20,880 nt of DNA, taken from IMG/VR virus record IMGVR_UViG_3300021961_000767, positions 1 through 20,880 of that record; one strand, written 5' to 3'. The notes beneath the pieces were generated by a model, which was not told the DNA's origin, did not search any database, and saw nothing but the letters and a program-made list of their open reading frames with translations. Numbering within the stretch: the first letter of the stretch is position 1; every line of letters starts with the position of its first letter. Shown in pieces: positions 2,137-18,300 of this stretch. This DNA is from a virus. The position numbers and the translations under genes were made by a program.

Positions 2137-3534
2137 ATGGCGATTCTCGATATCTTCAAACGCAAGAAGGCCGTTGCCGAAAGCAATACGCTATTCGGTC
2201 AAACTGCCCTCGGAAATAACATTGTCTATCAGGGCAATGACAGTCGCCCGACTGTAAATACGCAGATTCTGTATGTCACCACATCCGGCTCGACCGATGC
2301 CGGAAGGGTGGTTGATATTGGTACGCTGACGCGCAATAGCACCGTGATGGCCTGCGTCAATCTCAAGGCTAGGGCGCTCAGTCAGTTGCCAATCAAGATT
2401 ATGCGGCGCATGGAAGATGGGACGATGGTAGATGCCTTGGCGTCACCGGATGTTCCGACGCGGGAGAAAACTCGCGCCAAAGCGGTTATGTCGCTGCTGG
2501 AGTCTCCCAATCAATTCCAAAGTCAATATGAGTTTTGGTATCAATGGCTCATGTGGCTGGAACTGTCGGGGGAATCCTTTACGCTGTGGTGGCGCAAGGA
2601 TCAGGAGAATCCTTCGCAGGTTCCGATGGAGATGTATATCTTGGACAGCACCTTGATTGCTGTTCAGATTACTCCGACGCGCTATCCGTCTTATCGCCTA
2701 TCCACGCCGTCCTACGGGTTTAGCAAAGATGAGCCTTTGAAGGCGCATCAGGTAATGCACGTTAAAGAGGCTGGATGGCAAGGGTCTGCTGGCTTTAACA
2801 AGGGGTTGCTGGCCGTTGAGCTTGTCGGGCTGGATCAAGACATCGACCTATACGCCAACTATGTGATGCTCAATGGCGCAAAGCCGAGCGGAATGTTTAC
2901 CACCGAATCGGTGATTCCAGACCAAAAGTACAAAGAGATTGCCAGCCGGTTAAAGGAAGCCTGGGCGTCAATGACGGCCAGCCGCCGCCAAGACCCGTCG
3001 AAGCCGGGACAAGGAATGCTGCTCGACCAAGGCATGAAGTATGTGCCGCTGGATATGCTGACCTTGCAAGATGCGGATGCTGCCAATCTAAAAATCCAAA
3101 CCATGAAGCGCATCTGCGGCCTGTTTGGCGTTCCTCCGTCGATGATCGGGATAGCAGACCAAAAGTACAACAATACGCAAACGGTCATGGATGAGTTTTA
3201 TAAGAGCGCAATGTATCCGATGGTTGTGAACATCCAGCAAAAGCTCAAGCAGCACCTTTTAAATGGCTATCCGTCCTTGTATGTAGAGTTTGATACCAAG
3301 GACTTCTTGAAGGGTGCGCCATTGGATCAGATGAATTTTGTTGCGTCTGGCGTAAGCAATGGCATAATTAGTCCTAATGAGGCGCGTGAATACCTCAACA
3401 TGGCGAAGATGGCCGGTGCTGACGCGCTCAAAGACGATGCGAAACCTTCAGATGGGATTGCCGGAACATCGCCTCAAGATACTGGTGGGGGCGGTGGAAA
3501 CCAGCGCAGAAGGATGAACATTGGGACAACCTGA
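2137..3534 (+). CDS. Portal protein (HK97 family)
   Basis: Forms the dodecameric ring at one capsid vertex through which DNA enters and leaves and to which the connector binds. The 465-residue product starts with the typical MAILDIFKRKK. It carries family-like segments: GRVVDIGTLTRNSTVMACVN near the N-terminus, GLDQDIDLYANYVMLNGAKP mid-protein, FGVPPSMIG, and YNNTQTVMDEFYKSAMYP at about 344-361, which belongs to the long helical stem and wing. Length is normal for the Phage_portal family. The C-terminus is Gly-rich (GGGGGN) and probably disordered. GAGG (2128-2131) before the ATG serves as ribosome binding site. The end overlaps the next small ORF by 14 bases. Confidence 0.94.
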   Translation: MAILDIFKRKKAVAESNTLFGQTALGNNIVYQGNDSRPTVNTQILYVTTSGSTDAGRVVDIGTLTRNSTVMACVNLKARALSQLPIKIMRRMEDGTMVDALASPDVPTREKTRAKAVMSLLESPNQFQSQYEFWYQWLMWLELSGESFTLWWRKDQENPSQVPMEMYILDSTLIAVQITPTRYPSYRLSTPSYGFSKDEPLKAHQVMHVKEAGWQGSAGFNKGLLAVELVGLDQDIDLYANYVMLNGAKPSGMFTTESVIPDQKYKEIASRLKEAWASMTASRRQDPSKPGQGMLLDQGMKYVPLDMLTLQDADAANLKIQTMKRICGLFGVPPSMIGIADQKYNNTQTVMDEFYKSAMYPMVVNIQQKLKQHLLNGYPSLYVEFDTKDFLKGAPLDQMNFVASGVSNGIISPNEAREYLNMAKMAGADALKDDAKPSDGIAGTSPQDTGGGGGNQRRRMNIGTT

Positions 3535-3739
3535 TATAAGATATTTACTGGCGCTTCAGCGGCAAATCAAAGCCAAATCTTTGAAATTGCAGCCAAGTGT
3601 GGTAAAACCCCCTACAATACAAGACATTAACCAGTCTATTGTGCAAGGGGTCATCCATGACTCAGCAAATGCTGCTGATGTGCGAAGCGAAACTGTCGCT
3701 CAACGAAAGCGCGGCAGGCCGAAAAAGCGGCCAAATTGA
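3521..3739 (+). CDS. Small basic hypothetical protein, TTG start, AT-hook-like tail
   Basis: A 72-residue ORF squeezed between portal and protease, overlapping both. I do not recognise its family. The only start is TTG at 3521, but it has a good Shine-Dalgarno, AAGGA at 3510-3514, with a 6-base spacer, which supports real translation. The protein is basic and Gln-rich. It ends in QRKRGRPKKRPN, whose RGRPKK hexamer also occurs near the end of the small terminase and resembles the AT-hook core. A DNA-binding or head-assembly role would be inference. The protease ATG (3657) lies within it in another frame. It could instead be a fortuitous ORF in the portal-protease junction. Confidence 0.5.
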   Translation: MGQPDIRYLLALQRQIKAKSLKLQPSVVKPPTIQDINQSIVQGVIHDSANAADVRSETVAQRKRGRPKKRPN

Positions 3740-4436
3740 GGCTCGCATTACAACTTGGGGTCCGCGAGAAGGTTGCGATGGCCGCAAGTTTAATTACAAG
3801 CCCGAGGCATTTATGTCTTGGGCTGAATCTTTTGGGGCGTCCGGCAGGCCGCTTCCCATGTATGTCAACCACGAATCTCAGGGAATTCCGGTCGGAGAGT
3901 GGACCGAATTTGCTTTTGACGATGAAGGGATGACTGCGACAGGTCGAATCTATACAGAAACCAGTTCTGGCAGCGATCTGTATAAGATTATGAAAGAATC
4001 TCCGGCCATGTTTGGTGGGGTTTCTGTCGGTGCATATGCCGACGAATATGAGATGGTTGACTCTGCTGGCGAACCGGATGACTCGGATGACGCCTATTTC
4101 TCCATCGTCAAGGGTGGGCTGCGCGAAGTTAGCGTAGTCATGCATCCCAACAATCCCTCGGCTGCGGTTCATTCGCTGGAGTTCTTCCGCGAGGATGGAT
4201 CAGCCGATCTCAAGATTCTTGAGCAAACCCTGCGCGATGCTGGGTTGTCGAGGAAAGATGCGGTCGCTGCCGCGTCTATTTTCAAGCGCGTTCTTGAGCA
4301 ACGTGATGTTGTTCAACCTGCGCCTGAGAACGCGCCGGTTCAGAGCGATTCTGATGCGGAAGCGACCACCCAATTGCTCGCTGCGCTACAGCAACGCGAG
4401 CTTCTTAAAGCTCTTACCTCAAAGGTTTCCCAATGA
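3657..4436 (+). CDS. Prohead maturation protease (HK97 gp4-like, S78)
   Basis: Serine protease that is packaged in the procapsid, removes the scaffold domain of the capsid protein and then degrades itself. I chose ATG 3657 (259 residues) because AAGGGG (3645-3650) lies 6 bases upstream; an upstream in-frame TTG at 3639 would add 6 residues without a ribosome site. With this start the core runs from about 27 to 180. The candidate catalytic residues are H72 in MYVNHES and S123 in FGGVSVGA, with E157 in LREVSVVMHP as the possible third member. The C-terminal 80 residues are helical, acidic and Gln-rich, as is usual for the part that targets the enzyme to the scaffold. The stop overlaps the capsid gene start (ATGA). 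Confidence 0.88.
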   Translation: MTQQMLLMCEAKLSLNESAAGRKSGQIEARITTWGPREGCDGRKFNYKPEAFMSWAESFGASGRPLPMYVNHESQGIPVGEWTEFAFDDEGMTATGRIYTETSSGSDLYKIMKESPAMFGGVSVGAYADEYEMVDSAGEPDDSDDAYFSIVKGGLREVSVVMHPNNPSAAVHSLEFFREDGSADLKILEQTLRDAGLSRKDAVAAASIFKRVLEQRDVVQPAPENAPVQSDSDAEATTQLLAALQQRELLKALTSKVSQ

Positions 4437-5779
4437 AAGAGATCATTGAAAAGCTGGACGCTATTGAAGCGTCCAATCTGTCGAAGGTCGAAGCAGTCAC
4501 CGCCAAGGTTGACGAGGCCATCGAGTCCATGAAGAACGAAGTGGCTGAGAAAGTTTCGGCCCTGGAAGCCAAGGTTGCTGCGGTTCAAGCTCCCGAGATC
4601 ATTCGTCCGGTCGCCAAATCCGTTCGTCAAGACGTTAACCGTTTGGTGCGTGAGCAACTGCGCGACATCGCCTCTGGCAAGTCCGCTTTTGAGCGCGAAC
4701 TGAAGATGTTTGCTGATGAAGCTCAGTATCACGCCTACCTGCAAGAAGCGTCCGCGCTGACCGCTGGCGGCGACGGCAAAGGCGGCCGCACCGCGTATGA
4801 TCCGGTGTTTGCTGCGCTGCGTCTTGGCAATCCGATGCGCGGCATTTCGCGTACCGTTGCTACTGATGGTTCCAGCTACCAGTTCCGCGTCAAGACCGGC
4901 AATGCTGGCGCTCAATGGGGTTATGGCATCCAGAACAACGGATCGGCCACGACTGAAAACACCAGCATTTGGCAGATCGTGATGAAGGACATCAACGTCC
5001 AGTTCCCGATCCGCACGGCGGCGCTCGATGACATCGACGGCCTTGAGGCCAATGTCGTTGACGATATGCTGGCCGAGTTCGCGCAAAGCGAAGCTCTGTC
5101 GATGGTGCAGAACGATGACCAAAGCGGCACCGGCACGACCGTTGCCACGGGCGGCGCTGATGGCCTGCGTGGCTTGAATCAGTATGGCGGCGCAAACAGC
5201 GTTTACGCTGGCGGCACTACCTCGGCTGCGGCCTTTGGTTCTTCCGGCACCGGCTCGACTTCCGGCCTGCATGACCTGGCAACTTATGATCAGTTGACCA
5301 CCAACGCGAACACCGTTGGCGCAAACAACGTCACCTATAACGACGTTATCAATCTGATCTATGCGCTTCCGCAGCAGTATTGGACGGATGCGGCGCGGTT
5401 TATGATTAATCCGGTTCTGCTCAACGCCATCCGCGCACTCAAGGATGACAATGGCGCTCCGATCTTTAATCGTAACGAAGGTCTGTCGGTTAACGGCATC
5501 GTTGGTCAGTTGCTTGGCTTTGATGTGGTGGTCAACAAGTATGTTGACAACCCGTCGCAAGCCTCGGCAGGTTCGGCTGGCACGACTTCGCTTTATCCGA
5601 TGTACTTTGCCGACTGGTCGCGCTTCCATACCATTGTTGATCGCCTCAACATGGTGATGCGTCGCTACGATCAGACCCTCCCTGGCTACATCACCTTCTT
5701 TGGCGAGAAGCGCCTGGGAACCTCGGTTCGTGACCCGAACAGCGGCGTTCGTTATCGCTCGACTGGCACAGCGACCTGA
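4433..5779 (+). CDS. Major capsid protein 1 (HK97 fold, with scaffold delta domain)
   Basis: Main shell subunit, probably made as a fused scaffold-capsid precursor. Residues 1 to about 104 are charged and helical (coiled-coil pattern EKLDAIEASNLSKVEAVTAKV), matching the HK97 delta domain in size and place. The mature part probably begins near LQEASALTAGG (103-113) and has the Phage_capsid pattern: YDPVFAALRLGNPMR (122-136), a central beta-rich region, and a C-terminal GYITFFGEKRLGTSVRDP (418-435). AAAGG (4421-4425) precedes the ATG, which overlaps the protease stop. From 4433 to 5629 the gene has no TTA, CTA or TCA codon. That bias fits very high expression and explains a 429-codon open frame on the other strand. 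It is followed by a hairpin and then a paralog. Confidence 0.93.
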   Translation: MKEIIEKLDAIEASNLSKVEAVTAKVDEAIESMKNEVAEKVSALEAKVAAVQAPEIIRPVAKSVRQDVNRLVREQLRDIASGKSAFERELKMFADEAQYHAYLQEASALTAGGDGKGGRTAYDPVFAALRLGNPMRGISRTVATDGSSYQFRVKTGNAGAQWGYGIQNNGSATTENTSIWQIVMKDINVQFPIRTAALDDIDGLEANVVDDMLAEFAQSEALSMVQNDDQSGTGTTVATGGADGLRGLNQYGGANSVYAGGTTSAAAFGSSGTGSTSGLHDLATYDQLTTNANTVGANNVTYNDVINLIYALPQQYWTDAARFMINPVLLNAIRALKDDNGAPIFNRNEGLSVNGIVGQLLGFDVVVNKYVDNPSQASAGSAGTTSLYPMYFADWSRFHTIVDRLNMVMRRYDQTLPGYITFFGEKRLGTSVRDPNSGVRYRSTGTAT

Positions 5780-5780
5780 T

Positions 5781-5813
5781 AGGGGTCAAGGGGTGGACGG
5801 GCGTTCACCCCTT
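5781..5813 (+). terminator. Terminator-like hairpin between the two capsid genes
   Basis: AAGGGGTG (5788-5795) pairs perfectly with CACCCCTT (5806-5813). A further G-T and A-T pair inside closes a six-base loop. The T-run is short (the stem ends in TT, then TACTT), so it may be a weak or partial terminator, an RNA-processing site or a 3' stability element, not a full stop. A second 5' arm, AGGGGT at 5781-5786, could compete for the same 3' arm (ACCCCT), giving two alternative folds. Placed right after capsid protein 1, it could set the ratio of transcripts for the two capsid proteins. Confidence 0.6.
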
Positions 5814-5839
5814 TACTTCAACCAGTAAGCGAGAACAAC

Positions 5840-6859
5840 ATGACGGTCACAGAAAAAATTCTTGATGGCATCAAAAGCGCGATCCATGAGGGCGGTAAGC
5901 AAGTTATCAGCCTGACGGAAGCGTCGAGTATCACCGGATCAGGTTCCGGTGTGGGTGGCCGAATTGTCTTTGATGACGTATTTGCGGCCTTGCGATACGC
6001 CAATCCGTTTCGGATGGGTTCACGAATCATGCCGGTTTCCGGTTCTGACGCGATGTTTGTCGCCAAGACAGGCAACGCGACAAATCAGGCGGGAAATCCC
6101 TGGGGCTATCCGGTCCAGGATAACCAAGGCAGTCCCAATACAAATACAACGATCTGGCAATTGCCGGTTCGTGCAATTGCAGCCACTCTTCCAATCCGCA
6201 CCGCGGTCATGTCCGATGTCAATGGACTTGAAGCGGAACTGGTTGAAGATTTGATGATGGAATTCGCGCAGCTAGAAGGCGCTTCAATGGCGATCAACAA
6301 TGATCAGGCCGGAAGCACTACCACCACAACTGGCGCAACCTCCGGGCTTCGCGGTTTGGATAGCTACGCGGATGGCGCGTCTGTTTCTGCGTTTGGAACC
6401 TCGGGCACCGCAATCACCAATGGTATTCATTCGATCTCGACGCAGACTGCAACGACTTCGATTGCTTACACAGACATTACGGCGGCGGCTTCTCGGCTAC
6501 CGGCTCAGTATTGGGCCATGCCGGATGTTGCTTGGCACATCAATCCTTCGACGATTCAAGCTCTGCGCGATCTGACTGACTCGCAAGGGCTTCCATTGTT
6601 CCTGGAGATTGGTGACGAAGATGGCGCTGCGGTTGGTCGCATCTTTGGATGGCCGGTCATCCCGAATCCATATCTGTCTGCCTCTTATCCGGTTTATCTA
6701 GCGCATTGGCCGCGGTTCCTGACCATTGGCGATACGGAAGAGATGTCGATTCAGATGATGGAGCAAAGCGCCCCTGGCTTTGTGACGCTGTTTGCTGAGA
6801 AGCGAGTAGTGTCCACGGTCAAAGACCCGTTCGCTGGCGTTCGTATTAAGGTGGTCTGA
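5840..6859 (+). CDS. Second HK97-fold capsid protein, paralog of capsid protein 1, without scaffold domain
   Basis: A 339-residue protein that aligns with residues of about 102-442 of capsid protein 1. Shared patterns include L-EAS-ITG-GGR (25-41), DDVFAALRYANPFR (45-58), LPIRTAVMSDVNGLEAELVED (within 117-137, near-match to FPIRTAALDDIDGLEANVVDD), GLRGL, LPAQYW, and GFVTLFAEKRVVSTVKDP (313-330). It lacks the ~100-residue charged N-terminus, so it has no delta domain of its own and probably cannot start assembly alone. It uses codons that capsid protein 1 avoids (TCA, CTA). The ribosome site is weak (AAGCGAG before AACAAC-ATG). Both suggest a lower dose. It could be a minor or vertex subunit or an alternative shell protein. 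Which one is unknown. Confidence 0.85.
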   Translation: MTVTEKILDGIKSAIHEGGKQVISLTEASSITGSGSGVGGRIVFDDVFAALRYANPFRMGSRIMPVSGSDAMFVAKTGNATNQAGNPWGYPVQDNQGSPNTNTTIWQLPVRAIAATLPIRTAVMSDVNGLEAELVEDLMMEFAQLEGASMAINNDQAGSTTTTTGATSGLRGLDSYADGASVSAFGTSGTAITNGIHSISTQTATTSIAYTDITAAASRLPAQYWAMPDVAWHINPSTIQALRDLTDSQGLPLFLEIGDEDGAAVGRIFGWPVIPNPYLSASYPVYLAHWPRFLTIGDTEEMSIQMMEQSAPGFVTLFAEKRVVSTVKDPFAGVRIKVV

Positions 6860-7524
6860 TGTCAACCGGCACGTTGTACGATGCAGTTCCCGCTTTAGGC
6901 GGGACTCGGAATCCATTCAATTACGAAAAGATTGAGGAGATTTCTCGCGACAATGTGACTGCTTGGCTGACAATGGAAGAGGTTACGCAGCATCTTAATC
7001 TCTTTGATGATGAGAGTCAGGACGTATACATCGCTAGTCTTGAGCTTGCGACGAGACAGGCTATTGAGGACTATCTAGGCATCTCCATTTTCCCAATTTC
7101 CTATCGGGTTTGGTATGCCGCCTCTTCGCTCTATGGCGAACCTCTTGCGCTTGATTTGCCGGAAGTTTCTCAGAGCAACTACCCAAGTCCGCTTGGTATC
7201 ACGATCATCAAAGTTGCGTATTACAACTCCAGCAATGTCGCCGTTACGTTAAGCAATACCGATTACTTCTATGATGGGTCAGGCAATCGGATTGTTGTTG
7301 ATACGATGCCATCTGACATTAGCTATCAGATTGCTAATCCGGTGTTTGTGGAATATTCGACTGCGGCCAATCTGCTTGCTGCCTATCCGGTAGTCAAGCA
7401 GGCGGCTTTGTTGATGCTCACGCATTTGTACAACCATCGCAGCGACACCGAGGATCGGATCGTCAGAACGATTCCTTATGGCGTTGCTTCGCTGCTGCGT
7501 AAGTACAAGCCGCTGGTGATGTGA
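6859..7524 (+). CDS. Head-tail connector protein (HK97 gp6-like)
   Basis: A 221-residue protein probably forming the ring directly below the portal. The helical first half has the connector pattern: VTAWLTMEEVTQHLNLFDDE, then a helix ending in RQAIEDYLGISIFPISYRVW, followed by a beta-rich middle and a C-terminal helix pair (AALLMLTHLYNHRSDTEDR, then IPYGVASLLRKYKP). That last motif is typical of gp6/Phage_connect-type adaptors. The ATG overlaps the stop of the second capsid gene (TGATG), with AAGGTGG at 6848-6853 as ribosome site. It is somewhat longer than the HK97 protein, with an N-terminal extension of about 30 residues. Confidence 0.78.
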   Translation: MSTGTLYDAVPALGGTRNPFNYEKIEEISRDNVTAWLTMEEVTQHLNLFDDESQDVYIASLELATRQAIEDYLGISIFPISYRVWYAASSLYGEPLALDLPEVSQSNYPSPLGITIIKVAYYNSSNVAVTLSNTDYFYDGSGNRIVVDTMPSDISYQIANPVFVEYSTAANLLAAYPVVKQAALLMLTHLYNHRSDTEDRIVRTIPYGVASLLRKYKPLVM

Positions 7525-7868
7525 TGGCAATCGCTAGGTTTGAGAATATTGCAGTCAACAACTTGACGTTTGGAATCTCAAGTTTTGGCGAACAATCAAC
7601 GACTCAGACAAAGTGGTTTGACACTCGCGCTAGGGTGGCAGATGTTGCTAATAACGTCAGGATTTCTGAGAAGTATCGTTTGTACAGCGACCTAGTGGAG
7701 TTCACGTTAAATTTCACGCCAAACACTAGGGCGATGGCAAACGATCAGAATCTGTACTCAATCACCTGGCGCGGCAAGGATTGGCGAATTACGGATTGTC
7801 GAGAATCCAATGATCGGATGACCGTAATGTTTATGTGCTATCGCAACGACCCGGAAACGGCGGTCTGA
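7524..7868 (+). CDS. Head closure / head-tail joining protein
   Basis: A 114-residue, mainly beta-stranded protein. ITWRGKDWRITDCRESNDR near the C-terminus matches the Phage_H_T_join pattern (strand, GxxWRI, strand, charged loop). Proteins of this family close the bottom of the filled head and dock the tail. I chose ATG 7524, which overlaps the connector stop (TGATG), over the GTG one codon upstream at 7521. The ribosome site is poor (GGTGAT), so translation probably depends on coupling to the upstream gene. Its place between connector and tail terminator is the standard one. Confidence 0.72.
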   Translation: MAIARFENIAVNNLTFGISSFGEQSTTQTKWFDTRARVADVANNVRISEKYRLYSDLVEFTLNFTPNTRAMANDQNLYSITWRGKDWRITDCRESNDRMTVMFMCYRNDPETAV

Positions 7869-7869
7869 T

Positions 7870-8286
7870 ATGGGTCAAAATAGCGTTATTGCATATGCAC
7901 AGGCAATCCAAGCTCAGTTGCAGTCAATAGTGACGCCGGTTCCTGTATATGCGTCCTTTAACCGCAACTTTGCAACCGATCCTAAGTTTTTGGTGTGGAT
8001 GTTGCGCGATGTTCATCAGCCTGTGTATACAGGGCCGGTGCAAAGTGTAAAAGGCATTGATCGACCTATCTTTCAAATCTCCATCTTTACGCAGCAAATT
8101 CAAGATGGGTTTGAACTTAGTCAGTTGGTGATTGATGCGTTGCATGGATACAGCGGGTTATTTGGTGGCCCGACTTATGGTTTCCAGATTTCAAAAGCTG
8201 ATGTAATGTGGCTTTTTAATAGTTACAATAACGACGAAAAGATGTCGCAAATCTACTTGGATTGCACTCTGGACGTTCCGACTTGA
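7870..8286 (+). CDS. Tail terminator/completion protein (DUF3168-like)
   Basis: A 138-residue protein with the DUF3168 layout: an N-terminal helix (IAYAQAIQAQLQSI), then PVYASFN, the loop VYTGPVQSVKGIDRPIFQIS, and a helix FELSQLVIDALHGYSG, followed by strands. Members of this family form the ring capping the tail tube at the head end (lambda gpU/HK97 gp11 type). It starts one base after the head closure stop and ends 35 bases before the first tube gene. Family assignment rests on pattern and position, so a moderate doubt remains. Confidence 0.68.
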   Translation: MGQNSVIAYAQAIQAQLQSIVTPVPVYASFNRNFATDPKFLVWMLRDVHQPVYTGPVQSVKGIDRPIFQISIFTQQIQDGFELSQLVIDALHGYSGLFGGPTYGFQISKADVMWLFNSYNNDEKMSQIYLDCTLDVPT

Positions 8287-8295
8287 CAAGACAGC

Positions 8296-8305
8296 GTTTA
8301 TAAAC
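8296..8305. repeat. Perfect 10-bp AT-rich palindrome before the first tail-tube gene
   Basis: GTTTATAAAC is its own reverse complement and sits in the 35-base gap between the tail terminator and the first tube gene. A TTGACA hexamer overlaps the preceding stop (8283-8288), but the TATAAA in the palindrome is only 10 bases away, too close for a sigma70 promoter. AGAGGAAA (8309-8316), just downstream, is the ribosome binding site for ATG 8322. The palindrome may be an operator or chance. Confidence 0.3.
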
Positions 8306-8321
8306 TTTAGAGGAAATTGTC

Positions 8322-8816
8322 ATGGCTCTGCCTAATCTTGTTTTGCCGGGGTTCAGCGCCGCGCTGTATTGCCAGCCGGGATCAACTCCTACTCCGCTGA
8401 CCGTTACTCAGCTTTCGCTGGTTGCCAGCGTATCTCCAATTGCCGTGTCCGGTAATTTGCTTCCTGTTGAGGCGATTCCCGCTTTCGGTACGGACGATGC
8501 GGTCGCTTCCTATGGCGTTGCTGGTTCGCGGCAGGGAGACAAGATTCCCGTGCAAAACGCTCCGACTTCGATGTCAATCACAGCGGCGTGGAACCCCTCG
8601 GATGCCAATCTGCTGCTGGTTCGCGCTGATTCTTATTCTGGCGTGATTGACCGGACGTTTGTGATCTCTGCGACAGACGGCACCAATATCGTCTATTACG
8701 CATTTAACGGTCGCGTCGGCAATTTCCAAATTGACTCGGCCCCCGGCGCTGAAGCGAAATGTATGTTCACTATTCATCCGCGTGGCAACCAGTTTGGTTG
8801 GTCGAACAACGCATAA
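8322..8816 (+). CDS. Major tail tube protein 1 (first of a tandem pair)
   Basis: A 164-residue, Ala/Gly/Ser-rich, beta-predicted protein. I identify it as a tail tube subunit from position (after the tail terminator, before the assembly chaperones and tape measure), size, and its tandem homolog. It begins MALPNLVLPGFSAALY and ends with IHPRGNQFGWSNNA. Residues 49-83, from VEAIPAFGTDDAV to QNAPTS, are identical to residues 58-92 of the neighbour. A strong AGAGGAAA ribosome site precedes the ATG. It does not obviously match a named tube family, so the role is inferred. The alternative is that one of the pair is a head or tail decoration protein. Confidence 0.7.
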   Translation: MALPNLVLPGFSAALYCQPGSTPTPLTVTQLSLVASVSPIAVSGNLLPVEAIPAFGTDDAVASYGVAGSRQGDKIPVQNAPTSMSITAAWNPSDANLLLVRADSYSGVIDRTFVISATDGTNIVYYAFNGRVGNFQIDSAPGAEAKCMFTIHPRGNQFGWSNNA

Positions 8817-8828
8817 GGAGTAAATAAA

Positions 8829-9347
8829 ATGGCCGCACCTAATGCAGTTCTTCCTGGTTTTTCTGCCGCCCTGTGGATGCAGGACGATGTTACGCCGACC
8901 CCGCTTTCGACCGCCAATTTAGCGGTTTGGGTGGGTCAAGTCGCCGATATTGCAGGCACCGCCGCCAATGGAACCGGCACCGCTGGCGTTCAAGTTCCCG
9001 TTGAGGCAATTCCAGCCTTTGGAACTGATGATGCTGTCGCATCCTATGGCGTAGCTGGCTCCCGTCAGGGCGACAAGATTCCGGTGCAGAACGCCCCGAC
9101 ATCGCTGTCCATCACAGCGGCATGGAATCCTTCCGATGCAGCGTTGCTGCAAATCCGGGCTGATTCTTATGCAGGTACCGTTGATCGGACCTTTGTTGTT
9201 ACGGCGACCGCCGGGGCTTCCACGGTTGCGTATGCGTTCAATGCTCGCGTTGGCAACTTTCAGATTGACGCAGCGCCTGGGGCTGAAGCGAAGTGTATGT
9301 TTACGGTGCATCCCCGCGGCAACCAGTTTGGATGGAGTAACACATGA
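8829..9347 (+). CDS. Tail tube protein 2 (paralog of tube protein 1)
   Basis: A 172-residue homolog of the preceding gene, collinear over the full length: MAAPNAVLPGFSAALW at the start, AAWNPSDA in the middle, VGNFQIDAAPGAEAKCMFTV near the end, and HPRGNQFGWSNT at the C-terminus. The clearest difference is a 9-residue longer Gly/Thr/Ala-rich loop before the conserved block (GTAANGTGTAG, 43-53). A strong AGGAG (8816-8820) overlaps the stop of tube protein 1 and lies 8 bases before this ATG, so the pair is coupled and both should be well made. At DNA level the two copies differ at many synonymous sites, so this is not a recent duplication or an assembly echo. Confidence 0.7.
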   Translation: MAAPNAVLPGFSAALWMQDDVTPTPLSTANLAVWVGQVADIAGTAANGTGTAGVQVPVEAIPAFGTDDAVASYGVAGSRQGDKIPVQNAPTSLSITAAWNPSDAALLQIRADSYAGTVDRTFVVTATAGASTVAYAFNARVGNFQIDAAPGAEAKCMFTVHPRGNQFGWSNT

Positions 9348-11034: not shown

Positions 11035-13524
11035 ATGGCTACAGGGCAAACGGCGGCGACACTAGATGTCCGTATGCGAATGGAGACTGGCGAGTTTGTT
11101 GCCGGGGCCACCAAAGCAGCGCAAGAGACAACCAAATTAAAAAATGCCATTGCCCGTGAGATGAAACTTGCGGAAAAGGAGCTTAAAGCTCTTGATTACG
11201 CTACGCAAGACTACGGCAAGACAGTCACTAAAGTCGCTCAGATGGAGCGTGAATTGGCCGAGGGCCGATTCAAAAACTTGCGTCAATCTGAGCAGGGCAA
11301 GTCAGTCGCCGCTCAATTGCTGGCCCAAGCAGCGGCTTATGACAAGATGGCGGCTTCCACGAAAGCCGCTACCAAAGGCTTAACTGAGCAACAAAAGATT
11401 CAACTGTCATATCAGTTGACTGACTTCGTGACGCAGGTTGGTTCTGGTCAAAACGCTATGGTTGCATTCTTGCAACAGGGCGGTCAGTTCAAAGATGTGA
11501 TGGGCGGCTTTGGCAATACGTTCCGTTGGCTAGGAACGCTATTTACGCCATTTCGCGTCGCTGTTGGCGGGGCGGCAACCGCTCTTGGAGTGCTTGTCAC
11601 CGCGTTTTATAAAGGTGCTAAAGAGTCTGCCGACTTTAGGGACAGCATGATTCTAACCAGCAATTTTGCTGGCGTCACAGAGCAATCCATCACTAAATTA
11701 GCCGAGTCATCAAGCAAAAAGCTGAATGTATCAGTCGGGAGCGCAAGGGAATCTTTATATGCACTAGCGGCATCCGGGAAGTTTACGCAGGAGTCTATTG
11801 GCTCAGTCAATCAGATGATCTTGAATCTCTCCAAGCTGACTGGAGATTCCGCTAAGACAACTGCCGAAAAGCTTATTCCATCTCTAGATGGATCAGCTTC
11901 TTCTGCCAAACGCCTTAATGATCAATATGGCTTTTTAACTCTTGCGGAATATAAGCGAATTGAGGCGCTGGAAAAGGCTGGAGATAAACAAAAGGCAATC
12001 AAAGAACTTACTGATTCTTTTAATGCCAATGTAGAAAATCAAAAAAGAAGCCTTGGAGTCATTGAAAAAGCATGGAATGCGATTGGCAATGAAATCAGTC
12101 GAGCCTGGGATGCTATTAAAGGATTTGGACGGGAGAACTTAGAGCAAGACTTGGCGGCAATTGATCGCCAAATTCAAGCAATCCATGAGTCTCAGGCTGA
12201 TATTGCAAAAGCCGCCGGATTGCGCGGCCTTACTCCTGGGCAAATGACGGACCAGTTGTCAAACACTCTTGCGTCTTTGGACGCAAGAAGAACGGCAATC
12301 ATGGCGAAGATTGAAGCTGCCGATAAAGCCGCCAGGAAGGCTCAAGAGGAGCGCAGAAAAATAGATGACCGCGCCGCTGCTGGAGGCATAGACGCGGAGC
12401 TGAAAAAGCAAGAAGAGCTGACCAAAGCTGGCTTTAGACTTCAGCTTGTATCGTTTCAAGACTACGTTGATCAGAAGGCAAAGCTAGAGGCTGAAGCCAA
12501 CGTCAAGATTGAAGAGTTAAGAACAGAAACCACGCGCCAAAATGTTCGCGAAAGATTTCAATTCCAGTTTCTCAACGCCCAAATCTTGGCGAAAAATGAG
12601 CTTGCAATCAGAGAGCAATTAAAGCGTGATCTCAATAAGATTGATATGGATCGCATTTTGGCGATTGCCAAGGCAGAAGGTGAACGCCAAGATATTGCTC
12701 AGAAGGCTGCGGATGACCTTGCGCTTCGCGTTGCCAATGCGACAAGAAGCCTAGGAGAAAAACTTTATCTAGAGAAGATTTCTCTTGATGTTGACAAGGA
12801 AAGAGTGGCGCTTCAGAACAATCTTTTATTCGCCACCGATGCTCAAAAGAAGTCCGCAGAGCAACGCTTTGAGATGGAAAAGCGCATTCAGCAGATTGAG
12901 CAGGATCGTCTGATTGACCCACAGGGCAAGATTGCCATCATCGCCCAACTGCGTAATCTGCAAGATCAGCGAGATGCGTTCAACAAGCTAGAAGAATCGG
13001 TCAAGCGCGTGGGCGACAAGTGGGAGTCCGTGTTCAGCAACATGACTCGCGCCATTGAGTCTTTTGTCAGAACCGGGAAGATGTCCTTTAGCGATCTGAC
13101 TCGCAGCATTATTGCTGACATCTTGGCAATGGAGATGAAGGCTCAGGCAAGCGTTTTGTTTCGTGCGTTCAAAGGCATGGTGATGACTGCCCTGGCATCA
13201 AATACCTCCTTTACAACAGCACCTGGCGTATTTGATACCGGGGCGGTGGCATACGGCAGGGCCACGGGAGGTCCGGTATCTGCCAACACGCCATACATGG
13301 TTGGCGAAAGAGGTCCGGAGTTGTTTATGCCTAGCGGGGCAGGAACGATCATTCCTAACCATGCCCTGGGCGGCATGGGAGGTCAGACAAATATCACCAA
13401 TTACAACATTAGTGCCATTGATGTGAAGTCCTTTGAAGATCGCATCCTTGGAAGTTCTAAAGCAGTCTGGGCGGCAAATGCGTATGCCAGCAAGGGCATT
13501 GCAATGGCTGGCGGGAGAGCGTGA
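11035..13524 (+). CDS. Tail tape measure protein (lambda gpH-like)
   Basis: 829 residues. Sets tail length, fills the tube lumen and is ejected ahead of the DNA. The N-terminal third resembles the TMP_2/gpH family: QKIQLSYQLTDFVTQVGSGQ at about 119, a hydrophobic segment VAVGGAATALGVLVTAFY at about 176-193 that may cross the host membrane, then YALAASGKFT. The middle (about 370-650) is a long charged coiled coil. The C-terminus has the lambda tape-measure C-domain (WESVFSNMTRAIESFVRTGK, about 663-682), then GPVSANTPYMVGERGPELFM and a Gly/Asn-rich end. AGAGGT (11021-11026) precedes the ATG. At about 0.15 nm per helical residue it would suggest a tail of very roughly 120 nm. Confidence 0.93.
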   Translation: MATGQTAATLDVRMRMETGEFVAGATKAAQETTKLKNAIAREMKLAEKELKALDYATQDYGKTVTKVAQMERELAEGRFKNLRQSEQGKSVAAQLLAQAAAYDKMAASTKAATKGLTEQQKIQLSYQLTDFVTQVGSGQNAMVAFLQQGGQFKDVMGGFGNTFRWLGTLFTPFRVAVGGAATALGVLVTAFYKGAKESADFRDSMILTSNFAGVTEQSITKLAESSSKKLNVSVGSARESLYALAASGKFTQESIGSVNQMILNLSKLTGDSAKTTAEKLIPSLDGSASSAKRLNDQYGFLTLAEYKRIEALEKAGDKQKAIKELTDSFNANVENQKRSLGVIEKAWNAIGNEISRAWDAIKGFGRENLEQDLAAIDRQIQAIHESQADIAKAAGLRGLTPGQMTDQLSNTLASLDARRTAIMAKIEAADKAARKAQEERRKIDDRAAAGGIDAELKKQEELTKAGFRLQLVSFQDYVDQKAKLEAEANVKIEELRTETTRQNVRERFQFQFLNAQILAKNELAIREQLKRDLNKIDMDRILAIAKAEGERQDIAQKAADDLALRVANATRSLGEKLYLEKISLDVDKERVALQNNLLFATDAQKKSAEQRFEMEKRIQQIEQDRLIDPQGKIAIIAQLRNLQDQRDAFNKLEESVKRVGDKWESVFSNMTRAIESFVRTGKMSFSDLTRSIIADILAMEMKAQASVLFRAFKGMVMTALASNTSFTTAPGVFDTGAVAYGRATGGPVSANTPYMVGERGPELFMPSGAGTIIPNHALGGMGGQTNITNYNISAIDVKSFEDRILGSSKAVWAANAYASKGIAMAGGRA

Positions 13525-14159: not shown

Positions 14160-14812
14160 GTACCACAATGACTGCGCTTAGTAGCGCAAACATCAATCAC
14201 GCAGAATTTATCAAGATGACGGTTGGCGATCCTGCCACCTATTACTTCTTCTGCAACGCGGCATCTCCCATCTCTGTTGATGGGATGACCTTCAATGGTC
14301 TTGGCTCCCTGCTGTTGCTTGGCGAGATCAATCGAGAGGTCAAAGCAACATCTGTCGATCTGTCCGTTTCCCTGATTGGCATTGATCCGTCAAACATTGC
14401 TTTGCTGCTCTCTACGGACATCAAGGGATCGCTGGTTGAAGTCTGGCGCGGGTTCTTGGATTCCGACAATCAAATCATTACTTCCCCGTCGCAGCAGTTC
14501 TTTAAACGATACACAGGCATCGTCAACAGCGTTGCCATCAATGAGGACTGGAACGAGCAGTTGCGTTCTCGCGTGGCAACTTGCTCGATTGCTTGCACAA
14601 GCATGAGGAAGGTTTTGGAGAACAGGATTGCAGGGCTAAAGACAAACCAAGCAAGCTGGCAGTTTTATCACGCTGGCGACACTTCGATGGATCGCGTTGC
14701 CGCAATCTCTAATACCTACTTTGATTTTGGCAAGCCTCCGACGAAAGGTGGCTCTGCATCCAATCCTGCGGACACGGCGCAGGAAGTGGTGGATAGCGTT
14801 GGCGCACCCTGA
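14156..14812 (+). CDS. Minor tail / tail-hub protein (lambda gpL position, DUF2163-like)
   Basis: 218 residues from ATG 14156, which overlaps the previous stop (ATGA) and has GGGAG at 14140-14144. An in-frame TTG at 14117 would add 13 residues but lies inside the upstream gene with no ribosome site. The pattern ISVDGMTFNGLGSLLLLGEI, then VDLSVSLIGIDPSNIALLLS, then GSLVEVWRGFLD resembles the N-terminal hub domain of DUF2163-type tail proteins. Near the C-terminus are QASWQFYHAGDTSMDRVAAI and a Gly/Ser/Pro-rich tail. The four-cysteine cluster expected of lambda gpL is not evident; only CSIAC and one further Cys are seen. Family placement is tentative. Confidence 0.6.
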   Translation: MSTTMTALSSANINHAEFIKMTVGDPATYYFFCNAASPISVDGMTFNGLGSLLLLGEINREVKATSVDLSVSLIGIDPSNIALLLSTDIKGSLVEVWRGFLDSDNQIITSPSQQFFKRYTGIVNSVAINEDWNEQLRSRVATCSIACTSMRKVLENRIAGLKTNQASWQFYHAGDTSMDRVAAISNTYFDFGKPPTKGGSASNPADTAQEVVDSVGAP

Positions 14813-15252
14813 TGATTCGTCTAGCAAACAAGATTGATTTGCCTGTATTGGTGGAGATGATGCGGGGCTATGCAAGTGAATCGCCAATGCCATTGCTTGC
14901 TGACCCCGCGAACCATGATGAGCAGCATATTTGTGACCTGTTGATTTCTTTGATTGCTGGAAGAGGGTTCGTTCTGCTTGATGACAAAAACAGAGGGATG
15001 CTGGCGGCAATTGTTGTACAGAATGTTTGGTGTCCTGCGGTGCTGGAGTTAAAAGAACTTGCATGGTGGGTTGAACCCGAACACCGAAATGGATCGGTTG
15101 GCGGCAGACTGTTCATTAAGTTCAATGAAATTGCAGACGCTTATTTGCAGAGCAACAGGGTTCAAAGTGTGGCGATGTCTTTGCTGGAGAGCAGCAAGGT
15201 GAAGAATCTGCCGGGATACAAAAAGATTGAAGCGACGTTTTTGAGGATGTAG
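14812..15252 (+). CDS. GNAT-family N-acetyltransferase in the tail-tip operon
   Basis: A 146-residue protein with the GNAT layout: MIRLANKIDLPVLVEMMRG (first strand and helix), then FVLLDDKNRGMLAAIVVQ, then motif A, ELKELAWWVEPEHRNGSVGG (79-98), where RNGSVGG fits the acetyl-CoA pyrophosphate-binding R/QxxGxG/A loop. This is followed by the helix RLFIKFNEIADAYLQS and a final strand/helix pair. The gene starts inside the previous stop (TGATG) and ends 3 bases before the tip protein, so it belongs to the tail operon. It takes the place where lambda has gene K (NlpC/P60 peptidase). Substrate is unknown: it could be a phage structural protein, a host protein or a small molecule. Confidence 0.82.
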   Translation: MIRLANKIDLPVLVEMMRGYASESPMPLLADPANHDEQHICDLLISLIAGRGFVLLDDKNRGMLAAIVVQNVWCPAVLELKELAWWVEPEHRNGSVGGRLFIKFNEIADAYLQSNRVQSVAMSLLESSKVKNLPGYKKIEATFLRM

Positions 15253-15255
15253 GAA

Positions 15256-18200
15256 ATGCCATCGTCACTCATTTTGACCGCAATATATGGAAGCATGGCG
15301 GCGGCAACTGCTGCGCTTGGAGCAATTGGCGTTGCCGTTACAACCTTTGCAATCAACTTTGCTGTGTCTGCCGTTATGGCAAGGGCATTTACTCCAAAGA
15401 AAGATTCCCCGCAGGACTTTGGAGTACGCCAGCAAATCCCTCCAAGCTCAGACAATCCGGTTCCGGTGGTATATGGCGAGGCGTGGCTTGCAGGAACATT
15501 CGTTGACGCGGTGCTGAGTACCGATCAGAAAACGATGTACTACGTTCTTGCTATTAGCAATATCTCTGCTAATGGGCAAGTAACGTATGACACCACAAAG
15601 TTCTATTACGGGGATCGGCTAGTCACGTTCGACGGCACCGATCAAACAAAGGTTGTCTCGCTGACGGATACCGCTGGAAACGTAGACACCAAGATTGCGG
15701 ATCAGATGTATGTGTATCTGTACACATCAAACGCATCAGGAGTGATCTCTCCTGTCAATACCGCGCAATATCCGCATCAGGTGATGGGCGGTGGAGACAT
15801 TGACGCTGCGCTGCAATGGCCCTCTACAAACCGGCAAATGACCGGACTGGCGTTTGCCATTGTCAAGCTGATCTATTCCGCTGGAGATGGCGTCACAAGG
15901 CTTGAGCCGCTGACCTTTAAGATCAATCATTCCTTGAATGGAACTGGCGTAGCAAAGCCGGGGGATGTTCTCTATGACTATCTGACCAACGAATTCTATG
16001 GTGGTGCTGTTCCTGCTTCACAGGTCAATGCAACTGCTTGTACTGCGCTGAATTCCTATTCAGATCAAGTTATTACTTACACGCCCTATTCTGGCGGGAG
16101 TGCGACTCAGCCTCGATACAGGATCAATGGCGTTCTGAATACGGGCGACACCGTACTGGCGAACTGCGAGCATATTCTGACTGCTTGCGATTCGTGGTTA
16201 TCGTATGACGCGGCAAGCGGTCAATGGACGCCAGTCATCAATAAAGCGGAAACTGCATCGTTGGCATTTGATGATTCCAACATCATTGGAGAGATCAAGG
16301 TCAGCGTTACCGATCTTTCTTCGACCTACAATCAGATCGAAGTTTCGTTCCCGTTCAAAAACAACAAAGACCAACCTGAGTACATCAGAGCAGCGGTTCC
16401 TGCTGGATTGCTGTTCACCAATGAGCCGGTAAATAAACTTAGCACTTCGTTCAATCTGGTGAACGATAGCGTTCAAGCGTCTTACCTTGCCAATCGAATC
16501 CTAGAGCAATCCCGCGAGGATTTGATTGTTACGTTTGCCTCGGCGTACCCCGGCATTCAGTTGAATGCTGGTGATGTGGTCAGCGTTACTAATGCGGAAT
16601 ATGGATGGAGTGCCAAGTTATTCCGAGTGATGAAGGTCGCGGAGGCATCGCTACCTGATGGCAATCTTGGGGCAAGGTTTGATCTGGCTGAGTACAACGC
16701 CCAAGTCTACGATGACTTTGACATCACCCAATACGAACCTGCGCCAAATGGCGATCTGCCTTCGCCCGAATACTTCTCTGCCCTTGGCGCGCCAACGATT
16801 GCAGCGTCAAGGCCCAACGAGAACCCGCCCACATTTGATGTGCAGGTCACACTACCTTTGACTGGTCGCATTACTTGGGCGACGCTCTACTACACCACAA
16901 ACCCTTCTCCAGCCGCGTATGACTGGAAGGTGCTGCGGCAAGCATCTGCTCCACAGGGAACTGCTGCAACAAATGGCGCGATCTATGGCTGGACAAAGAT
17001 TTCATTGCCAGTTGGGGCTTACTATTTCACTTGGATTGTGGGCAATGAGGTTGGTCAGTCAGCAAGGTCAACGACAAGCGCAGTATTTAACTGGACGCCC
17101 CTAGACGTCTCAGGAGCAATCACGGGGCTGGAGGATGAGATTTATATCCTCGGGTTAGACATCGACGATAAGCTCAGTAAGACTGGCGCAAATATCCTGA
17201 CCGGCACAATCGTCCCGGAGGACTCTGGCGGCATTAAGGCTGGATCAATCACTTGGAATTCCTCGACTGGTCAACTGACTGGTGGAAGCGGCGTCGCAAT
17301 CACAGAAGCGGGAATCATTGGCGCACAGAGCGGCACCGCAAAGTTCACTATTGATACGGCAGGGAATGCCACTTTTGCTGGAGACATCAGTACAGACGGG
17401 GATGCGTATTTTGCTGGCAAAACACAAACCGCAACGCAAATCTTTATTCTTGGAAGTTACTATAACGTGGACTATTCCACGTTTTCGTATGCGACATCGA
17501 ACGCGACAAGCGGTTCAGTTGCTAGGGCGGGGACGTATGGTTATGCCGACGCATCAACATCTGCATTGAATATTGGAATTATTGGATACGCTCCATCAAG
17601 CACAAAAGGGGTCGGAGTTTTTGGGCAAGGTGGTGAATATGGCGGGTACTTCATCAATTCATCTTCTGGCGGGATTGCAGTAGTTGCCTCCGCTTATACT
17701 TCCACAAGTATTGCATTGGCAGTATTAGGCAGGATTCAATGGGGCGGCACTTATATCTATAACGAACCAAGTGGATCAGGCGCATTCATGCGTGATGATG
17801 GTTCTTGGTCTTATGCCGTTCGCCAAACTCCATCAAACTCAGGGACCGCGACAGTCAACTCCAGCAGTCAAATCAGTCTGCTTGGAAGCACCAGCACCGG
17901 GATTGCTGGCGCATACGTTGGGACTTCTGCCTCTGGAAGCACCGTCACATGGACAATCCAAACCACCAGTCCTTCTGATCGCAAGCTCAAACAGGACATT
18001 GAGGATTCCGATCTTGGGCTAGATTTCGTCAATCAACTTCAGCCAAAGAAATACAAACTCAAGGCTGACCCAAAGCAGCAGGTGGGTTATGGTTTCATTG
18101 CTGACGAGGTTGCTGCTCTTGGCGTCCGAGATACTTCTTTGGTGTATCACGAACCGGAGTGGCAGGTTGGGGAGGAAACCGGATTTGACACGATACATTA

Positions 18201-18300
18201 CCCCTCATACGTTGCCATTCTGACCAAGGCAATTCAAGAATTGAGTGCCAAGGTTGATAGTCTGCAAACAGAGATTGCAGCCCTCAAAAACACCCCGTAA
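15256..18300 (+). CDS. Central tail tip protein: gpI-like segment, gpJ-like core, fibre and S74 chaperone
   Basis: 1014 residues, probably the host-recognising tip. Residues 5-45 are hydrophobic and Ala/Gly-rich, followed by SSDNPVPVVYGEAWLAGT; together they resemble the C-terminal half of lambda gpI. A gpJ-like core (tip attachment pattern) spans about 100-500, with an FN3-like domain at about 515-615. Gly/Ser/Thr-rich fibre sequence follows (about 620-895), with GNATFAGDISTDGDAYFAG. The C-terminal 108 residues form an S74 intramolecular chaperone: SDRKLKQDI (S907 is the likely self-cleavage serine), VGYGFIADEV, YPSYVAILTKAIQEL and a closing coiled coil. S74 domains trimerise the fibre and then cut themselves off. 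GAGGA (15243-15247) lies 8 bases before the ATG. Confidence 0.87.
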   Translation: MPSSLILTAIYGSMAAATAALGAIGVAVTTFAINFAVSAVMARAFTPKKDSPQDFGVRQQIPPSSDNPVPVVYGEAWLAGTFVDAVLSTDQKTMYYVLAISNISANGQVTYDTTKFYYGDRLVTFDGTDQTKVVSLTDTAGNVDTKIADQMYVYLYTSNASGVISPVNTAQYPHQVMGGGDIDAALQWPSTNRQMTGLAFAIVKLIYSAGDGVTRLEPLTFKINHSLNGTGVAKPGDVLYDYLTNEFYGGAVPASQVNATACTALNSYSDQVITYTPYSGGSATQPRYRINGVLNTGDTVLANCEHILTACDSWLSYDAASGQWTPVINKAETASLAFDDSNIIGEIKVSVTDLSSTYNQIEVSFPFKNNKDQPEYIRAAVPAGLLFTNEPVNKLSTSFNLVNDSVQASYLANRILEQSREDLIVTFASAYPGIQLNAGDVVSVTNAEYGWSAKLFRVMKVAEASLPDGNLGARFDLAEYNAQVYDDFDITQYEPAPNGDLPSPEYFSALGAPTIAASRPNENPPTFDVQVTLPLTGRITWATLYYTTNPSPAAYDWKVLRQASAPQGTAATNGAIYGWTKISLPVGAYYFTWIVGNEVGQSARSTTSAVFNWTPLDVSGAITGLEDEIYILGLDIDDKLSKTGANILTGTIVPEDSGGIKAGSITWNSSTGQLTGGSGVAITEAGIIGAQSGTAKFTIDTAGNATFAGDISTDGDAYFAGKTQTATQIFILGSYYNVDYSTFSYATSNATSGSVARAGTYGYADASTSALNIGIIGYAPSSTKGVGVFGQGGEYGGYFINSSSGGIAVVASAYTSTSIALAVLGRIQWGGTYIYNEPSGSGAFMRDDGSWSYAVRQTPSNSGTATVNSSSQISLLGSTSTGIAGAYVGTSASGSTVTWTIQTTSPSDRKLKQDIEDSDLGLDFVNQLQPKKYKLKADPKQQVGYGFIADEVAALGVRDTSLVYHEPEWQVGEETGFDTIHYPSYVAILTKAIQELSAKVDSLQTEIAALKNTP

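Follow-up and report, generated by a model that had tools for sequence, protein, structure and literature searches.

A constant capsid gene pair and an optional, loop-matched tail tube gene pair in a siphophage-like late module

The two major tail proteins of phage SPP1 arise by frameshift. In phage T5, the tube protein pb6 is a fused duplication whose contacts between rings are mostly made by the β2–β3 loops and the N terminus, and the same review describes this loop as the ring-to-ring contact in solved tubes and as highly dynamic in the monomers of lambda, SPP1, and YSD1 (PMC8718954). For shells, published work reports that gp24 of phage T4, a paralog of gp23, forms the pentameric vertices (PMC5694885), and that two HK97-fold shell proteins co-assemble in mixed shells in the Family 2B encapsulin of Streptomyces lydicus (PMC12407261). 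Here, we analyzed a stretch of 20,880 bases, positions 1–20,880 of the IMG/VR virus record IMGVR_UViG_3300021961_000767 (hereafter, the window), which carries a siphophage-like late module with terminase, portal, protease, capsid, connector, tail, tape measure, and tail fibre genes. A first-pass annotation of the window had reported that both the capsid gene and the tube gene are duplicated, and we confirmed this for MCP1 (4433–5779) and MCP2 (5840–6859), which encode capsid proteins, and for MTPa (8322–8816) and MTPb (8829–9347), which encode tail tube proteins, all on the plus strand. Both duplications are real and far above chance: MCP1 and MCP2 align over 346 columns with 40% identity (E = 2e-75), and MTPa and MTPb are 72% identical (E = 3e-89). 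We consider that the locus is best explained, with a probability of roughly 0.6, by two unrelated polymers of two paralogs each, namely an obligatory and asymmetric capsid pair with a major and a minor subunit, and an optional tube pair with a matched interface.

Relatives were collected by searching IMG/VR with four queries and genome contigs with one; together with the window and Methylophilaceae phage P19250A (KX815270), this gave 302 loci, which were grouped by near-identity into 246 clusters. At most the best 80 loci were taken from each search and two of the IMG/VR searches started from MTP queries, so the share of tube pairs in this set is inflated. In the phage collection, P19250A was the only relative of MCP1 and MTPb at E ≤ 1e-5 and the only relative of MCP2 at E ≤ 1; further matches to MCP1 were weaker and mostly partial. 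P19250A is an isolate that has the same gene order as the window from the terminase to the MTP and both capsid genes, with MCP1 and MCP2 58.6% and 54.0% identical to those of the window, and its MCP2 is annotated merely as a “hypothetical protein.” It has a single MTP of the a-type, whereas the window has two MTPs. One relative (L087) is on a contig that had been placed in a Candidatus Nitrosotalea genome; this is probably a phage contig that was mis-binned.

The tube proteins matched no Pfam or PHROG family and had no relevant sequence match in the PDB, and they were identified as tail tube proteins from the gene order and from a predicted model of MTPb that resembles lambda gpV. This model, with a mean predicted local distance difference test score (pLDDT) of 78, matched lambda gpV and lambda-like tubes with VIA Z values of 11.6–12.8; the best match was a lambda-like tube (Z = 12.8, 133 residues, root-mean-square deviation [rmsd] 3.9), and gpV itself gave 12.0–12.5. 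The model places a long loop at residues 57–92, between strands at residues 53–56 and 93–98, and residues 66–86 within the loop have pLDDT values below 50. MTPa and MTPb are two separate adjacent genes with their own starts, 12 bases apart in the window. MTPb, the long type, has an insertion of about nine residues ahead of the loop relative to MTPa, the short type; the location of the FGxDDA motif makes MTPa an a-type protein. Wherever this motif is normally placed, the short type comes first and the long type second: the motif is at position 54 in 136 first members and at 62–63 in 138 second members, and the other pair members are cut, lack the motif, or have it at odd positions.

MTP genes with 700 bases on either side were available in 152 of the 246 clusters, comprising 102 pairs and 50 singles in a sampling biased towards pairs; the MCP1-seeded set alone (82 records, including the window and P19250A) contained 11 pairs and 34 singles with at least 3,750 bases after MCP1. 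The tube pair is optional in this clade. The 50 single MTPs were divided into type c (28), type a (12), and type b (10). The type c tubes (L004, L009, L016, and others) have a GARTG motif and form their own clade, and on the MCP1 tree they occur as a single gene only. This tree contains 82 genomes, 38 of 120 having been left out because their MTP state was unreadable, and its branch support comes from a quick method; the pair or single state changes at least 17 times on it, and for the ab label 15 changes are required by branches with good support. When the loop is excluded, one change is enough to separate the a and b types of 80 pair members, and the tree of the loop requires 25 changes. Judged from these sequences, MTPa and MTPb are old and distinct types that separated in one ancient split. 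The length of the tape measure protein showed no clear difference between pairs and singles (medians 811 and 797, 66 and 21 clusters, p = 0.25). Tape measure open reading frames were shorter in the b-type singles (median 665 amino acids) than in 65 ab pairs (811), but these singles, eight in number, are too few to use.

The partner-matched β2–β3 loop corresponds to residues 52–87 of MTPa (8475–8582) and 61–96 of MTPb (9009–9116), both on the plus strand. In 78 dereplicated pairs, the identity of this loop between a and b was 0.955 within genomes and 0.847 between genomes, and none of 5,000 shuffles reached the observed value; orthologs across genomes were no more alike in the loop (0.81–0.89 in 12-residue bins). 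Position 94 was matched at 0.99 within and 0.54 between genomes, and position 143 at 1.00 and 0.62. The matched positions lie mainly within the loop and at residues about 142–151, and the remainder of a and b differs systematically. Among 12 divergent genomes, the loop identity was 0.951 with the genome's own partner and 0.856 with others, a mean that none of 20,000 shuffles reached, and the own partner was best or joint best in 11 of the 12. Under a stricter cut that left six genomes, 41 of 20,000 shuffles reached the observed loop match.

Matched loops on otherwise diverging proteins are expected if rings of either protein must stack together. We therefore propose that, where two tube genes exist, MTPa and MTPb would co-assemble in one tube, the common loop being kept matched so that any ring could stack on any other, and the rest of the two proteins diverging to give rings of two kinds or rings of mixed composition. 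Both proteins would thus be in the same tail and would mix within or between rings. The predicted Shine–Dalgarno pairing was strong for both genes, with medians of −5.7 kcal/mol for MTPa and −7.1 kcal/mol for MTPb (MCP1, −3.4; MCP2, −4.2), and no hairpin lies between them, which fits similar amounts of the two proteins. Alternatively, MTPa and MTPb could be alternatives or end-specific proteins, one forming the bulk of the tube and the other a few end rings, in which case the loop would reflect a shared stacking neighbour. This agrees with the confinement of the matching largely to the loop and the short stretch near residue 150 and with the systematic differences between a and b elsewhere, but the similar amounts suggested by the strong ribosome-binding sites and by the lack of a terminator between the genes argue against it, and the a- and b-type singles suggest that each type can build a whole tube; we consider an end-specific role unlikely.

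Several results weigh against joint stacking in one tube. Compared with the nearest relative rather than with all other genomes, the gain in matching was small (0.955 versus 0.939; 40 pairs better, 16 equal, and 22 worse; p = 0.03). Furthermore, changes in the loop were mostly non-parallel, with 474 parallel changes against 1,494 in a and 1,242 in b (1,176 close genome pairs, with overlapping counts). These two results indicate that the match is slow and acts at the level of lineages. The likeness of the loops could also be maintained by a common third partner, such as the tape measure protein or a chaperone, which is the main alternative explanation; old gene conversion may be the origin of the match.

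In this clade, the capsid pair is an ancient and obligatory feature. MCP2 was downstream of MCP1 in all 182 clusters in which MCP1 is followed by at least 1,200 bp (64 of the 246 clusters could not be assessed), and MCP1 was upstream of MCP2 in all 166 clusters in which MCP2 is preceded by at least 1,500 bp (80 of the 246 could not be assessed). Both proteins scored above the curated cut-off of 24.2 bits for PF05065, MCP1 with 104.5 bits (8.6e-30) and MCP2 with 76.8 bits (2.4e-21). A model of MCP2 predicted with AlphaFold2 (pLDDT 75) is a complete HK97-fold subunit; it was closest to the capsid chains of a capsid-forming phage-inducible chromosomal island (cf-PICI) and the Rhodobacter capsulatus gene transfer agent (GTA), with VIA Z values of 21.1–21.6, and matched the mature head of HK97 (1ohg) with Z = 15.9 (rmsd 5.2, 245 residues). 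The two proteins differ at the N terminus. In the 117 of 120 genomes in which the motif shared by both proteins was located in MCP1, a median of 105 residues (range 93–108) precedes it; this N-terminal region of MCP1 is likely delta- or scaffold-like. MCP2 lacks it: by the nearest start, a median of 26 residues (range 22–34) lies ahead of the motif in all 120 dereplicated genomes. A homing-endonuclease-like gene (phrog_314, 5e-15) lies between MCP1 and MCP2 in one relative (L042, 5704–6246). A scan for tandem PF05065 matches in 398 genomes of one phylum missed a second copy in one genome (G001) that was seen otherwise, so the scan is no evidence of rarity; the matches listed included partial copies lying side by side in G293 and, in G272, a gene that is split.

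Additionally, a GC-rich, terminator-like hairpin followed by a T-rich tail lies 3′ of MCP1 (5789–5812 in the window, plus strand). It was present in 117 of the 120 genomes, compared with a mean of 2.6 and a maximum of 5 in 20 dinucleotide shuffles, and comprised 81 distinct stem-loops; two of the three genomes that lack it have a GC-rich stem without a T run. The same test was positive after MCP2 in 1 of 119 cases, after MTPa in 0 of 60, after MTPb in 9 of 57, after single MTPs in 6 of 39, and inside MCP1 in 2 of 480 segments. Since the hairpin is common after MCP1 and nearly never found after MCP2, the pattern points to one major and one minor gene for the shell. MCP1 would be the bulk shell protein carrying its own scaffold-like N-terminal region, the hairpin would lower the transcription of the genes downstream of MCP1, and MCP2 would be made in a smaller amount and sit in the same shell at a dedicated site, most likely the pentamer vertices or near the portal.

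The homology, the predicted fold, the missing N-terminal region, the universal linkage, and the conserved hairpin are the firm part of this account. Two observations weigh against the rest of it. First, the hairpin precedes every later gene and may therefore have no specific bearing on MCP2. Second, three of the 120 MCP2 frames (L180, L185, and L193) could start about 133 residues further upstream, which would add an unrelated N-terminal domain of about 100 residues; in L185, the one frame for which the family match was run, this domain matches phrog_2859, a phage family of unknown function. The extended L185 frame is at 5862–7199, and its extra domain is perhaps displayed. It is also conceivable, if rather improbable, that MCP2 is not a shell subunit but rather a decoy, a modulator of size, or a protein outside the virion. 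Its lack of the N-terminal region of MCP1 would suit such a role, and MCP2 is known here from its genes and a predicted model, but the complete predicted HK97 fold, the strict conservation, and the fixed place in the operon disagree with a protein outside the shell; a size-modulating role stays compatible with the fold and the conservation.

Adjacent paralogs are prone to gene conversion, and recurrent conversion rather than selection could in principle have produced the loop match of the tube pair; a and b are mixed on the core tree, which speaks for this. However, conversion alone would leave a trace at synonymous sites, and the identity of fourfold sites in the loop within genomes was at background (median 0.33, maximum 0.62 among 78 pairs). 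Orthologs with a core fourfold-site identity of 0.3–0.4 had a loop amino-acid identity of 0.839, with 7% at ≥ 0.944, whereas a/b pairs within genomes, with a mean fourfold-site identity of 0.342, had a loop identity of 0.955, with 82% at ≥ 0.944. Conversely, orthologs that are as alike in the loop as partners are (near 0.955) had fourfold-site identities of about 0.6–0.8. Recent gene conversion was accordingly rejected, and we regard recurrent conversion as quite unlikely. As an internal control, MCP1 and MCP2 showed no partner matching: the identity was 0.411 both within and between genomes, with no column above 0.10, and in 13 divergent genomes it was 0.399 and 0.400, with 3,161 of 5,000 shuffles as high. 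The ancient a/b split, the loop matching beyond synonymous similarity, and the predicted position of the loop form the observed basis of the proposed two-component tube.

The first-pass annotation had also proposed a functional link between the two duplications, to be sought in their co-occurrence. Within this clade, the pairs showed no tendency to go together. Among clusters with at least 2,600 bp upstream of the MTP genes, MCP2 was present in 77 of 77 with paired MTPs and in 48 of 48 with a single MTP. Both MCP genes were in the cluster for 47 of the 50 single-MTP clusters, and the other three do not contain MCP1. The MCP pair was never seen lost while the tube state changed at least 15–17 times on the MCP1 tree. 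That the paired layout is one design, with both duplications selected together, is highly improbable, because MCP2, although present in every pair-MTP cluster with enough upstream sequence, is equally constant beside single tubes and through all the changes of tube state, because loop matching is seen in the tube pair alone and not in the capsid pair, and because P19250A carries the MCP pair with one MTP. The better reading is that, within this clade, the duplications arose and evolve independently and the pairs are not functionally coupled. The related proposal of a two-component particle holds in the sense that each pair is conserved, maintained, and resembles a two-component polymer, but not as a single joint design.

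Other genes complete the siphophage-like module. The terminase large subunit (424–2103; PF20441, 1.5e-42; PF03354, 3.1e-22) and the portal protein (2137–3534; PF04860, 3.2e-61) are followed by a prohead protease whose start codon is uncertain (3639–4436; PF04586, 1e-7; phrog_3244, 2.4e-8). A head–tail connector (6859–7524; phrog_40, 3e-11; PF05135, 1.6e-4) follows MCP2, and the tape measure protein is at 11035–13524 (PF06791, 5.5e-46); these five genes are on the plus strand. Further downstream, an acetyltransferase-like gene at 14812–15252 (phrog_1249, 1.6e-7) is flanked by tail genes, and a central tail or fibre protein at 15256–18300 has a Phage-tail_3 domain and a Peptidase_S74 chaperone domain close to its end.

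A full-text literature search, judged by titles, abstracts, and passages, recognised no report of a siphophage with HK97 capsid paralogs in tandem, no two-gene siphophage tail tube, and no combination of a capsid pair with a tube pair. We tentatively propose, at somewhat less than even odds, a siphophage tube of two paralogs with one selected stacking interface, together with a fixed minor capsid paralog that lacks the N-terminal region of MCP1; as far as our searches show, such a two-paralog tube would be the first described for a phage. This large, little-studied, and widespread group of aquatic phages has an obligatory second capsid protein that has gone unannotated, and the sequences point to a two-component tail tube. 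If this is true, paralogs can specialise inside a symmetric polymer by keeping the shared interface identical while the rest diverges.

Compared with known systems, the capsid pair resembles gp23 and gp24 of T4 in that one phage has two HK97-fold paralogs, one major and one, here presumably, minor. Both paralogs are in the same genome, but a long N-terminal propeptide like that of the major capsid protein was not found in MCP2, whereas passages on gp24 describe a maturation cleavage site (PMC5694885); furthermore, the module here is siphophage-like, and a vertex site for MCP2 is putative. Both shell chains of the encapsulin match the MCP2 model (VIA Z 15.6–15.7), but the encapsulin is a cellular nanocompartment and MCP2 belongs to a phage head encoded amid terminase, portal, protease, and tail genes. 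The nearest solved sequence relative is the R. capsulatus GTA capsid protein Rcc01687 (E = 8e-7 for the MCP2 profile and 9e-8 for the MCP1 profile). The MTPb model shares the tail tube fold and the long β2–β3 loop of lambda gpV. T5 pb6 likewise has two tube domains per repeat, but in one fused polypeptide, whereas here there are two separate genes and the pair is optional in the clade. By its entry title, the Hcp2–Hcp3 heterohexamer of the Bacteroides fragilis type VI secretion system (T6SS; 9vne) places two tube-fold paralogs in one ring; its similarity to the MTPb model is weak (VIA Z 8.3), and it belongs to type VI secretion and not to a phage tail. Through the T4, encapsulin, T5 pb6, and T6SS parallels, both halves of the idea exist in other systems.

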